Shown here: positions 33,914 to 40,444 of the stretch, in pieces
Layout of the letters: the number at the start of each line of letters is the position of its first letter
How positions within the stretch are numbered: the first letter of the stretch is position 1
DNA from: Cyanobacteria bacterium M_surface_10_m2_119
Lineage (GTDB): Bacteria > Cyanobacteriota > Cyanobacteriia > PCC-6307 > Cyanobiaceae
NCBI GenBank assembly: GCA_016882525.1
Contig: VGPU01000006.1
Span: forward strand, 1 to 64,000
Direction of reading: 5' to 3'
Length of the DNA: 64,000 nt
Program-made: the position numbers and the translations under genes
The notes under the pieces: model-generated
Seen by the model: only the letters and a program-made list of their open reading frames with translations
The model's database searches: none
What the model was told of the DNA's origin: nothing

Positions 33914-35278
33914 TCAGAGGGCTCCCGCCGCCGTGCGGTCGAGCACGCCGCCGAGGTGGCTGGTGAGGTTCATCGCCGCCACCACTGCCGTGCCGTCGGG
34001 CCCATCGGGATAGTCGACCACCGTGACGCCGCCATTGCCTTGCTTGATCGCCCAGATGTCGCCAGGGCTGAGCCCCAGAAGGGCACAGAGGATGGTCTTG
34101 TTGACGGCGTCATGGGCCACCACAAGCGCGGTTTCCTCGGCGGAGAGGCTGGCGGCGATGGTCTGCCATGTCGCCAGGGAGCGCCCCCAGACGTCGTGGA
34201 TCGTCTCGCCCTCCGGCATCTGCACCGTTTCCGGGGCCCGTTTCCAGTCGCTCAGTAGCTCGGCCCAGCCTTCGGCGATCTCGCACTCCAGCCTGCCCTC
34301 CCAGAGACCATGGCCGATTTCCACCAGACCGCGGGTGCTGGTGAGCGGGACCCCGGGGTGGCTGGCCAGGATCGCCTCGGCCGTCTGGCGGGGGCGTGCC
34401 ATGGCACTGGTGTAGGCCCGGTCGATGTGCACCGGGGCGAGGAAGCTGCCGGCGGCCTCGGCCTGGGCACGGCCGTTGGCATTGAGCGGAATGTCGATCT
34501 GGCCCTGGAAGCGTCCCTGCCGATTCCAATCGGTTTCGCCGTGGCGCACCAGCAGCAGCCGGGCCCCACGCCCCTGCACCGGCAGGGGTTGGTCCAGGTG
34601 GGCTGTGCCATTGAGCGATTCCACCTGCACGGCCAGATCGCCGGAGGGCTGGCGGCTGAGGTTGATCACCGAAATCGATCCGTTGTCGATGCGAAGACGG
34701 CGGAAGCCCTCGCCATCGAGACCGAGCAGGGAGAGCACCACGCAGCGCAGGATCGCGTTGTGGGCCACCACCACCACGGAGGCGTCGTCGCCGTCCAGGG
34801 CATCGCCGTGACGATCGAGCAGCATCTGGCGGAAGCCCCCGGCCTGTGCCATCAGCTCGGCGATCGGGCGGTAGGACTCACCGGTGCTGCGCTGCAGTTC
34901 CAGGGTGTGGGGAGCGCGGCGCCAGAGGGCCTCCTGCTCAGGGAAGCGCTCGCGCAGATCCTGGCGGAGCAGGCCGCTCCAGGGCTCCAGGTCGATTTCC
35001 AGGAGGTCGTCACGCAGCTCCGGGATCAGCCCCTGGCCCTGGGCCTCCAGGAGATGGTCGGCGGTGTGGGCGGCCCGGCGCAGGGGGGAGCAGTAGGCCG
35101 CGCTCAGGCGCAGTTCCGCCAGGGCACGGCCGGCCGCCCGGGCCTGCTCCTCGCCGGTGGGCGTGAGGGAAGAGAGGTCGTCGCGTCCCTGGATCCGGTG
35201 CTCGATGTTGAAGCTGCTGAGCCCGTGGCGGACCAGCACAATCCGGAGAGACACGGACCCAGGGCTGCGCGGCGTCAC
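33914..35278 (-). CDS. Tandem histidine phosphatase (two phosphoglycerate-mutase-like domains)
   Basis: 454 residues from a GTG at 35278; a GTG at 35254 is also possible. Domain 1 (about 10-220) begins IVLVRHGLSSFN (R17, H18) and domain 2 (about 235-440) begins LLLVRHGETDWN. Both have the second catalytic His in a VVAHN/VVAHD context, so both could be active. Such double-domain proteins occur in cyanobacteria and are annotated as phosphoglycerate mutase or phosphatase; I cannot give the substrate. It lies 22 bases after the dihydroorotase-like gene start on the same strand, so the phosphatase is transcribed first. Confidence 0.85.
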   Translation of the reverse strand: MTPRSPGSVSLRIVLVRHGLSSFNIEHRIQGRDDLSSLTPTGEEQARAAGRALAELRLSAAYCSPLRRAAHTADHLLEAQGQGLIPELRDDLLEIDLEPWSGLLRQDLRERFPEQEALWRRAPHTLELQRSTGESYRPIAELMAQAGGFRQMLLDRHGDALDGDDASVVVVAHNAILRCVVLSLLGLDGEGFRRLRIDNGSISVINLSRQPSGDLAVQVESLNGTAHLDQPLPVQGRGARLLLVRHGETDWNRQGRFQGQIDIPLNANGRAQAEAAGSFLAPVHIDRAYTSAMARPRQTAEAILASHPGVPLTSTRGLVEIGHGLWEGRLECEIAEGWAELLSDWKRAPETVQMPEGETIHDVWGRSLATWQTIAASLSAEETALVVAHDAVNKTILCALLGLSPGDIWAIKQGNGGVTVVDYPDGPDGTAVVAAMNLTSHLGGVLDRTAAGAL

Positions 35279-36756: not shown

Positions 36757-36850
36757 GGCTGCTCTGGTCACCTGGTGAACCGGTACGGGGCCAGACCCCT
36801 TGCTGTCCAGCGGTCCGGGTGGTTCACTTGCGAAGCATTCGGCTGAATCG

Positions 36851-37324
36851 TTGGTCGCCTCGAACCTGCTACGGAAGACGTCCCCGCAGGAGTCGGTGGC
36901 CCGGTCCGGAGGCCTGCGCCGCCCGCAGCGTCGCCCCCTGCAGGTGATTCAGGGCTCCCTCTCCAGCCGTCAGGCCGCTCGCCGCTCCCCCCTGCTGGCC
37001 AGCCTGCACCGTGCCGCCGACGGCACCCTCGCCGGTCTCGGCCTCTGCATGCTTGCCCTCAGTGGCCTCACCCTGCACTGGCAGAACCACTGGGGGAAGA
37101 GTTACCAGCAGCTCGAGGCCGCCCAGGTGCTGGAGCACCGCCTGCAGGAGTCGGCGGCCCAGCTTGAGCAGCACTACCTCGGCGCGGTGCGCAAGCCCGG
37201 CTGGCTCGTGCCCACCAGCAGCGAGAAGCTGATTTACCTGCCCCAGCCCCCGGCCCAGGCCGCCCCTGCGCGCTCGCCCCTTGCTGTGAATCTGCAGCTG
37301 GGCCGCATGCCAGCGGGGTACTGA
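36851..37324 (+). CDS. FtsL-shaped bitopic membrane protein directly upstream of ftsI
   Basis: About 157 residues from a TTG at 36851; GTG at 36896 or TTG at 36800 are alternatives. A basic cytoplasmic N-terminus (RRPQRRP, RQAARRSP) precedes one membrane helix (GTLAGLGLCMLALSGLTLHW). Next is a helical segment with coiled-coil character (YQQLEAAQVLEHRLQESAAQ) and a short extracytoplasmic tail with PTSSEKLIYLPQPP. I recognise no named family. Topology, size and position (five bases before ftsI) are those of FtsL, the division protein encoded before ftsI in many bacteria. FtsL sequences diverge strongly, so this is inference from shape and context. Confidence 0.65.
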   Translation: MVASNLLRKTSPQESVARSGGLRRPQRRPLQVIQGSLSSRQAARRSPLLASLHRAADGTLAGLGLCMLALSGLTLHWQNHWGKSYQQLEAAQVLEHRLQESAAQLEQHYLGAVRKPGWLVPTSSEKLIYLPQPPAQAAPARSPLAVNLQLGRMPAGY

Positions 37325-37329
37325 GCGCC

Positions 37330-39144
37330 ATGGCCCAGGCCTTCCCCACCCGGCCGGCAGGAGCGCAGCAGCCAGTCCGTCGATCACGGGTGGTACCGAT
37401 CCAGCCGGTTCCTCCCCACCGCCTCCTGGCCGTCTACCTGCTGCTTGCCCTGGGATTGGGCGGGCTTGCCCTGCGCCTGGCCTGGCTCCAGGTGGTGGAC
37501 ACCGGCAATCTCCAGGCCAAGGCCCGGGCGATCCAGACCCAGTCACAACGGCCCCTGGGCAAGCGGCGCACCATCGTCGATCGTAACGGCCGCCTGGTGG
37601 CCCTTGATGAGGAGCGCTTCACCCTCTGGGCTCACCCCCGCTACTTCAACTTCCCGGGCGACGATCCCCAGAAGCTGCGCCGGCCCGATGAGGTGGCTTC
37701 GCGTCTGGCCTCCGTGCTGGCCGTGCCCAGCGAGAGCCTGCTCCAGACCATGGGTGCCCGGCCCAGTGGTGTGAAGCTGCGCACCAACATCGATCCGGAG
37801 ACGGCCGCCCGCATCCGCCAGCTCGGGATCAGTGGTCTCGACCTCGAGGCCTACCCCCAGCGGATCTATCCCCAGGGGTCCCTCTTCGCCAACGTGGTGG
37901 GCTTCCTCAACCTCGAGCGGGTGCCCCAGGCAGGACTGGAGCAGAGCCGCGATCGGGACCTGCAGCGCCAGGAGACCACCTTGACGATGCGCCGGGGTGC
38001 CGATGGCACGCCGCTGCCCGAGGGTCTGCGTGCTGGCTCGCTCTACGGCGATGACCTGCGGCTGCAGCTCACCCTCGATGCCCGCCTGCAGCAGGTGGCC
38101 CAGCAGGCCCTGGCCAACCAGGTGAAGAAGTGGAACGCCAAGCGGGCGGCCGCCCTTGTGATGGATGTGCGCAACGGCGAGATGCTTGCCCTGGCCTCCT
38201 TCCCCAGCTACGACCCCAACCGCTTCTGGAGCTTCAATCCCGGGCTGTTTCGTGAATGGTCGGTGCAGGACCTCTATGAGCCAGGCTCCACCTTCAAGCC
38301 CATCAATCTGGCGATCGCCCTGCAGGAGAAGGCGATCGATCCCAAGGGCAAGATTCACGATGGTGGCCAGCTCACCATCGGTGGCTGGCCGATCTTCAAC
38401 CACAACCGCCAGGGCAATGGCGTCATCGATTTCCCCACCGTGCTGGAGGTGTCCAGCAACGTGGCGATGGTGCAGGCGATGGCCAAGGTGAAGCGTGAGC
38501 GCTTCTGGCATTGGCTCCATGCCATGGGCATCGATACCCGCCCCGATACCGACCTCCCTGGGGCGGTGGCGGGCGAGCTCAAGCCCCGCCCGCTGTTCAC
38601 CAGCCATCCGATTGAGCCGGCGGTGGCCGCCTTTGGCCAGGGCTTCTCGCTGACCCCCCTGAAGCTTGTGCAGCTGCACGCGATGCTGGCCAATGGTGGC
38701 CGGCTGGTGAGCCCCCACATCACCCGCGGGTTGCGCTCCGGCGATGCCCTGGCCCCGACGCCGGGCTCCTCCGGGCTGCAGGTGCTGGATCCCTCCGTCA
38801 CCCGCACGGTGATGGGCTGGATGGAGACGGTGGTGGATCGCAGCGACAGCCTGGGGATCCGCGTGCCCGGTTATCGCATCGGCGGCAAGACCGGCACGGC
38901 CCAGAAGGCGGAGCGTGGGGTCTACATCCCCGGTTCCCTGATCACCAGCTTCGTGGGCCATCTGCCGATCGACGATCCGCGCTACGTGGTGCTCGTGGTG
39001 GTGGATGAACCCAAGGGCGGCAACACCTACGGCTCCACGGTGGCCGCGCCGGTTGCCCGCCAGATCATCGATGCCCTGCTGGTGCTTGAACAGCTCCCCC
39101 CCTCCCGCCCCCAGGAGCTGGCTGGGGCCAAGGTGCGCCGCTGA
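37330..39144 (+). CDS. ftsI: Penicillin-binding protein 2/FtsI, septal transpeptidase
   Basis: 604 residues from the ATG at 37330. One N-terminal membrane helix (LLAVYLLLALGLGGLALRLAW) is followed by the pedestal domain with GKRRTIVDRNGRLVAL. The transpeptidase domain has the serine in GSTFKP (S320), SSN in EVSSNVAM and KTGTAQ (K520). It cross-links septal peptidoglycan outside the cell membrane. The length is that of a class B PBP of the FtsI type. The FtsL-like gene lies five bases upstream, probably translationally coupled. Confidence 0.95.
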   Translation: MAQAFPTRPAGAQQPVRRSRVVPIQPVPPHRLLAVYLLLALGLGGLALRLAWLQVVDTGNLQAKARAIQTQSQRPLGKRRTIVDRNGRLVALDEERFTLWAHPRYFNFPGDDPQKLRRPDEVASRLASVLAVPSESLLQTMGARPSGVKLRTNIDPETAARIRQLGISGLDLEAYPQRIYPQGSLFANVVGFLNLERVPQAGLEQSRDRDLQRQETTLTMRRGADGTPLPEGLRAGSLYGDDLRLQLTLDARLQQVAQQALANQVKKWNAKRAAALVMDVRNGEMLALASFPSYDPNRFWSFNPGLFREWSVQDLYEPGSTFKPINLAIALQEKAIDPKGKIHDGGQLTIGGWPIFNHNRQGNGVIDFPTVLEVSSNVAMVQAMAKVKRERFWHWLHAMGIDTRPDTDLPGAVAGELKPRPLFTSHPIEPAVAAFGQGFSLTPLKLVQLHAMLANGGRLVSPHITRGLRSGDALAPTPGSSGLQVLDPSVTRTVMGWMETVVDRSDSLGIRVPGYRIGGKTGTAQKAERGVYIPGSLITSFVGHLPIDDPRYVVLVVVDEPKGGNTYGSTVAAPVARQIIDALLVLEQLPPSRPQELAGAKVRR

Positions 39145-39268
39145 CCCCCGCCGGCTGGCGCCTCTGTTGCCATTCGCGCAAGCTGCCCGCCGATCGTCAG
39201 GTGAAGCTGGCCGGGCTGGCTAGCGTTCGGTGGACCCGGTGTACCGTTCGCCGGCCCAGCAGGCAGCC

Positions 39269-40444
39269 ATGGCCAACCTTCTCGATCAACTCGCCGCCAT
39301 GACCGTGGTGGTGGCCGATACCGGGGACATCGACGCCATCAAGCAGTTCACCCCCCGCGACGCCACCACCAATCCCTCCCTGATCCTCGCGGCTGCTCAG
39401 ATTTCCAGTTACCAGGATCTGATCGATCGTTCTCTGCGGGAGTCGCGGCAGGTGGTGGGTCCTGAGGCCGGCGCGGATGCGGTGGTGCGTGAGGCCCTTG
39501 ACGAAATCTGCGTCACCTTCGGCAAGGAGATTCTCAAGATCGTGCCCGGCCGTGTATCGACCGAGGTGGATGCCCGGCTCAGCTACGACATCGAGGGCAC
39601 GATCGCCAAGGCCCGCAAGTTGATCGGTCTGTATGCCGAAGCCGGGATCGGCCGGGAGCGGGTGCTGATCAAGGTGGCCTCCACCTGGGAGGGCATCTGC
39701 GCGGCGGAGCAGTTGGAGAAGGAAGGCATCCACTGCAACCTCACCCTGCTCTTTTCCTTCGCCCAGGCGGTGGCTGCCGCCGAGGCAGGCGTGACCCTGA
39801 TCTCGCCCTTTGTGGGGCGCATTCTCGACTGGTACAAGAAGAGCACGGGACGGGACAGCTATCCCGGGCCGGAGGATCCCGGTGTGATCTCCGTGACGCA
39901 GATCTTCAATTACTACAAAACCTACGGCTACAAGACCGAGGTGATGGGGGCCAGCTTCCGCAACACCGCTGAGATCATCGAACTGGCAGGGTGCGATCTG
40001 CTTACCATTTCGCCGGCTCTGCTCGATGAGCTCCGCCACACCGACGGGGAGCTGGCGCGCAAGCTCAATCCCTTCGATCCGGCCCCCACCGAGGCCCAGA
40101 TCCACCTCGACGAAGCCCAGTTCCGGGCCATGCTGGCGGCCGACCCGATGGCCACCGAGAAGCTCGATGAGGGCATCCGGGGGTTCTGCAAGGCGATCGA
40201 AACGCTGGAGGCCCAGCTGGCCCACCGCCTGGCGGAGCTCGAGGGCGGCGCCGCCTTCGGCCATGCCGTGCACGAGATCTTCCTGCTCAACGATCTCGAT
40301 GGCGATGGCTGCATCACCCGCGAGGAGTGGCTGGGCAGCGATGCGGTGTTCGATGCCCTCGATACGGACAAGGATGGTCGGCTGGCCCCCGAGGACGTGA
40401 GGGGGGGGCTGGGGGCGGCTCTGGCACTCGGTCGCGCCGCCTGA
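39269..40444 (+). CDS. tal: Transaldolase fused to a C-terminal EF-hand pair
   Basis: 391 residues from the ATG at 39269; upstream in-frame codons reach 39230 but the family starts MANLLDQL. Residues 1-320 are class I transaldolase: TTNPSLIL, the Schiff-base lysine in VLIKVAST (K135), [20 protein letters not shown] and [10 protein letters not shown]. It moves a dihydroxyacetone unit between sugar phosphates of the pentose phosphate pathway. Residues 342-353 ([12 protein letters not shown]) and 365-376 ([12 protein letters not shown]) are two canonical EF-hand loops with Asp at 1, 3 and 5 and an acidic residue at 12. Transaldolase/EF-hand proteins are a known fusion type; calcium control is inferred. 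Confidence 0.95.

Follow-up and report, generated by a model that had tools for sequence, protein, structure and literature searches.

The FtsL protein of E. coli carries an activation/control stretch at the end of its coiled coil (AWI/CCD: L86, E88, N89, G92 and D93), and ftsL commonly, though not universally, follows rsmH/mraW in the dcw cluster. In P. aeruginosa FtsWIQBL, FtsL and FtsB are paired over their length, FtsL rests on FtsW as well as on FtsI, where it lies against the pedestal and the transpeptidase domain, and its last strand joins FtsB and FtsQ in completing a sheet (PMC7614612). Reviews state that cyanobacteria lack both FtsL and FtsB, and FtsN is reported to be lacking in most of them (PMC7766704). 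The preliminary description of the DNA studied here rightly noted that published cyanobacterial division gene lists mark ftsL as missing (PMC7766704, PMC4748335). With FtsL and FtsB stated to be absent, the way in which FtsQ might regulate FtsWI in cyanobacteria was an unanswered question. CyDiv (All2320 of Anabaena; PMC4748335), an earlier proposed cyanobacterial FtsB/DivIC-like protein from filamentous species, has a topology opposite to that of the protein considered here, with an N-terminal coil and a C-terminal membrane segment, and does not belong to its family. A precedent for a diverged FtsL that was missed by annotation is the chlamydial Ct271, from another phylum and likened here by description only (PMC4643143). 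The open-licence literature yielded no paper naming the gene described below, slr1601 or a cyanobacterial FtsL.

In this study we examine a 64,000-nucleotide stretch of DNA (the window) from Cyanobacteria bacterium M_surface_10_m2_119, in which a small candidate gene directly precedes ftsI. By comparing its product with relatives across the Cyanobacteriia and with the known FtsL and FtsB families, we conclude that it very probably encodes a diverged cyanobacterial FtsL.

The candidate gene and its protein

The candidate ORF (36851–37324, + strand) starts with TTG, encodes a putative FtsL-like bitopic protein of 157 aa, as judged from the reading frame, its relatives and profile comparison, and ends in a stop codon (37322–37324) that a spacer of exactly five bases separates from the ftsI ATG at 37330. 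An alternative TTG at 36800 would give a longer protein of 174 aa; the start at 36851 is favoured because the M-V-A N-terminus recurs among relatives. The ORF is a real gene, as demonstrated by purifying selection (dN/dS 0.22/0.87 to 0.43/1.39 against relatives), by variation that falls mostly at third codon positions and by wide occurrence in the order and in Prochlorococcus-type genomes. The downstream ftsI (37330–39144, + strand) encodes a class B penicillin-binding protein that carries a PBP dimer and a transpeptidase domain, as assigned from domain and solved-structure matches; its closest solved relatives are SpoVD/PenA/FtsI(PBP3), with MrdA well behind. On the 5′ side of the candidate lies a gene for an Rce1-like CAAX protease (PF02517; 35344–36756, the listed ORF starting with TTG), and rsmH/mraW is not found upstream of the candidate within the window. 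Further out, a long ORF on the minus strand (33914–35278) appears by eye to encode two tandem histidine-phosphatase/phosphoglycerate-mutase domains (two RHG-type motifs), and directly 3′ of ftsI is a transaldolase with a C-terminal EF-hand pair (39230–40444; PF00923 and EF-hand models).

The product is predicted to be a single-pass membrane protein with a short basic tail, oriented N-in according to the positive-inside rule. Its basic cytoplasmic tail (residues 1–53; 36851–37009) holds 10 K/R against 1 D/E and carries the juxtamembrane stretch that is conserved in picocyanobacteria, LxLIQGSLSxRKVxRxxPxLAGLHR. Hydropathy and the AlphaFold2 helix place the transmembrane segment at about residues 54–75 (37010–37075), the most hydrophobic 19-mers beginning at residues 55–60, and alignment together with AlphaFold2 delineates a periplasmic coiled-coil helix at about residues 76–111 (37076–37183) with an invariant Trp near its start (W81 in the 157-aa protein, “W80” where alignments drop the start Met). 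In the single-chain AlphaFold2 model the membrane and periplasmic segments form one unbroken helix, residues 46–111, with pLDDT mostly >90. This helix is followed by the post-coil motif PGWLVPTSSEKLIYLPQ at about residues 115–131 (37193–37243), placed by hhalign; the short motif reads LVPTSSEKLIYL in the candidate and GLVxxxPxxxIFLxPAP in the class-wide consensus. The remainder, delimited from the family alignment, is a variable tail that ends in a conserved Gly-Tyr (37244–37321); all of these segments are read on the + strand. Both the spacing and the topology that had initially been described for the small protein before ftsI are confirmed, the former by the base count and the latter by hydropathy, charge and AlphaFold2.

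Conservation beside ftsI and the C-terminal Gly-Tyr

A single-sequence search found the candidate gene in 109 of 150 genomes of the order. The frame directly 5′ of ftsI belongs to the candidate family in all 50 picocyanobacterial loci examined, where the distance from its stop to the nearest ftsI start ranges from −1 to 125 bp and many of the pairs overlap by one base. A profile built from 35 sequences (A1), searched against 242 Cyanobacteriia genomes, detected relatives in 162, one copy each, among them Prochlorococcus-type genomes that the single-sequence search had missed; it found no match in the other 80. We examined 41 of the distant cyanobacterial loci. Two class matches (L107 and L114) proved to be TPR proteins and were dropped, leaving 39 real loci, of which 38 are informative, one being ended by a contig edge. 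In 27 of these 38, ftsI lies directly downstream on the same strand, so that the conservation next to ftsI on which the preliminary description had proposed to check its reading is present both in picocyanobacteria and, for the most part, beyond them. In the remaining 11 the gene lies away from ftsI; at these loci (L088, L099, L127, L120, L093, L111, L097, L112, L089, L094 and L115) it sits among unrelated genes, several times facing a convergent gene.

Across the class-wide alignment two residues never vary: the Trp close to where the periplasmic coil starts, and the final Tyr. Tyr is the last residue in 89/89 family members (80 GY, 7 AY, 1 NY and 1 SY). In the window the Gly-Tyr codons occupy 37316–37321 and close a tail that is variable and often rich in Pro; 88 related ORFs end alike. 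The possibility that the Gly-Tyr arises incidentally from the ribosome-binding site of ftsI, or from stop and start codons that overlap, was considered and rejected: the motif persists at loci with ftsI 255 or 409 bp distant or missing, and so is a feature of the protein rather than a translation signal. Since the terminal residues of the distant members often lie outside the profile match that found them, the shared Tyr independently supports these members as real.

Comparison with FtsL and other families

Searches of Pfam, NCBIfam and the PDB with the candidate gave no accepted match, which explains why it has been overlooked until now. The candidate does not reach the cut-offs of the curated FtsL models PF04999 and TIGR02209, which are an annotation rule and not a biological definition. 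Just one of the 14 control genomes has a protein that passes the PF04999 cut-off, B. subtilis and Caulobacter being among those missed, and failure to reach these cut-offs is hence not diagnostic, since genomes known to have FtsL miss them too. No genome of 194 has a protein over the ftsL_broad cut-off, and searches of the genome and of the class with PF04999 and ftsL_broad gave weak matches, mostly noise. The models that matched the most of 46 family members, all weakly, were NCBIfam FtsL_Actino (7/46, best E 0.0037), NCBIfam ftsL_broad (3/46, best E 3.7e-4), a GspM model and a prepilin-peptidase-dependent protein model. Foldseek with the single-helix model of the candidate found no match in the PDB, and the PDB sequence search likewise returned nothing useful.

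One Pfam match could point away from cell division. The candidate scores 21.3 bits (E 2.7e-4) against PepSY_TM (PF03929), below the gathering cut-off of 28.8, and might on that basis be taken for a PepSY-type membrane protein; a chance ORF would be another reading without a link to division. That the candidate is unrelated to division is barely credible given that PepSY_TM is matched by just 2 of the 46 members (E up to 10), that the gene is under purifying selection and that it is conserved beside ftsI across the class. A clear match to an unrelated family, which the preliminary description had named as a ground for abandoning its reading, was not found among Pfam families, where this sub-cut-off hit is the only one.

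We turned to HMM–HMM comparison by hhalign, with 50 Pseudomonadota FtsL, 30 FtsB and the slr1601 family as targets and with cyanobacterial ATP synthase b (AtpF) to control for architecture. The cyanobacterial candidate profile matches the 50 FtsL with a probability of 94.2%, a pairwise E of 1.1e-7 and a score of 47.5; because E-values are for single pairs, it is the controls and not the E-values that carry the argument. FtsL and FtsB, whose homology is undisputed, score 51.0 on the same scale. The signal is mainly periplasmic (28.8 for that part alone, 18.3 for the membrane helix alone), and separate runs gave 43.7 against gamma/beta FtsL and 35.1 against alpha FtsL. Picocyanobacterial members alone give a weaker match (score 30.6, probability 50.6%), and the link of the window's protein to FtsL therefore runs through its non-picocyanobacterial relatives.

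An FtsI-dedicated partner that resembles FtsL by convergence, and may do the same job without descending from it, would be in keeping with an identity to FtsL of only ~15%, with curated-model matches that are all sub-threshold, with a coil shorter than that of FtsL and with a cyanobacteria-specific tail. Shared architecture, however, falls well short of the observed 47.5: the candidate profile scores 21.5 against FtsB, 21.3 against slr1601 and 20.1 against AtpF, reversed profiles score at most about 21, and 300 column shuffles within the tail, membrane helix, coil and outer segment have a mean of 15.0 (sd 3.4) and a maximum of 29.1. The match is also collinear beyond the coil into the post-coil motif, which hhalign pairs with LxMxxPxxxxIVVxP (alpha2-beta1) of FtsL. 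We consider convergence unlikely; the comparisons support a remote relationship of the candidate to FtsL specifically, rather than to FtsB or to another coiled-coil membrane protein.

With Pseudomonadota FtsL (PF04999/TIGR02209; E. coli, P. aeruginosa) the candidate shares a bitopic build, a basic tail, a helix continuing into a coiled coil, the post-coil L-x-M-x-x-P...I-V-V motif and a gene position directly before ftsI. It differs in its own invariant Trp near the coil start, in an extra variable tail mostly ending in Gly-Tyr and in a coil that falls about one heptad (6–7 residues net) short of that in each of the 50 FtsLs. Whereas 36–39 residues lie between the coil-start Trp and the post-coil motif in the candidate family, the neighbouring Arg position is 44 residues from the motif in 50/50 FtsLs. 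Against both alpha and gamma/beta FtsL the hhalign gap falls at the coil end, the site of the E. coli activation residues, although the position of a gap within a coiled-coil alignment may shift; as aligned, the shortening appears solid and its exact place does not. We set aside the missing FtsL Arg (E. coli R61) as a candidate-specific difference, since only 32/50 aligned FtsLs have it.

A putative DivIC-like partner and a possible FtsQLB complex

A DivIC scan of cyanobacteria turned up short FtsB-shaped proteins that correspond to NCBIfam NF052344, the “slr1601 family putative cell division protein”. An FtsB-like partner, on which the preliminary description had let its reading depend, thus exists in the form of a family found in 173 of 175 genomes, the source genome included. 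The source genome's own member (135 aa; L157:1363–1770, G000:C6:69743–69982), encoded ~5.6 kb past the end of the window, matches NF052344 below cut-off (E 7e-8) and covers most of the model; a PF04977 search of the same genome gave weak partial matches, mostly in long frames. Members of NF052344 match DivIC (PF04977) at E 3e-5 to 0.03. Like the candidate, the slr1601 family consists of small bitopic proteins with a coiled coil, is of the FtsL/FtsB type and is spread across the cyanobacteria, but it is a different, DivIC-like family at a different locus, and we propose it as the candidate's partner. Judged by sequence, two small membrane proteins with coiled coils are present in cyanobacteria: an FtsL-like one, usually encoded beside ftsI, and a DivIC-like one.

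FtsL and FtsB are related and alike in shape, and the slr1601 profile scores FtsL (28.1) about as highly as FtsB (26.8), which leaves room for a reading in which the candidate is the FtsB/DivIC member and slr1601 the FtsL member. We regard such an exchange as very improbable. FtsB/DivIC (PF04977) has the candidate's general shape, yet its profile score is at control level, less than half of that for FtsL; the candidate agrees with FtsL in its long cytoplasmic tail and in being encoded next to ftsI; and three of the four slr1601 members tested match DivIC at 3.3e-5 to 2.4e-4. With the candidate assigned to FtsL, the initial inference that the small protein is the missing FtsL is largely borne out, by its adjacency to ftsI, by the partner and by the profile match.

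By analogy with P. aeruginosa, the candidate would zip through its coiled coil with the slr1601-family protein in the FtsB role, the pair would be held by FtsQ, and the candidate's helix and post-coil segment would lie against the pedestal/transpeptidase domain of FtsI and against FtsW. The resulting FtsQLB complex would act on the timing of septal wall synthesis by FtsWI, in line with the FtsWIQBL structure from P. aeruginosa (PMC7614612). More tentatively, the candidate may be a rebuilt FtsL switch, in which the coil has lost about one heptad at its activation-control end, as would suit a divisome that has no general FtsN, and the cyanobacteria-specific tail partly takes over control, its Gly-Tyr docking on a divisome partner; we think this possible, if doubtful. 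To connect the short coil with the absence of FtsN reported for most cyanobacteria is speculation.

The family is a known one and the candidate a diverged member, yet it corrects the standard statement that FtsL is absent. If this assignment is true, a class-wide FtsL together with an FtsB-like protein of the slr1601 family would mean that the core FtsQLB–FtsWI machine is present in cyanobacteria, which is directly testable, and a natural FtsL with a shorter coil would offer a means to ask what FtsN-type activation requires.
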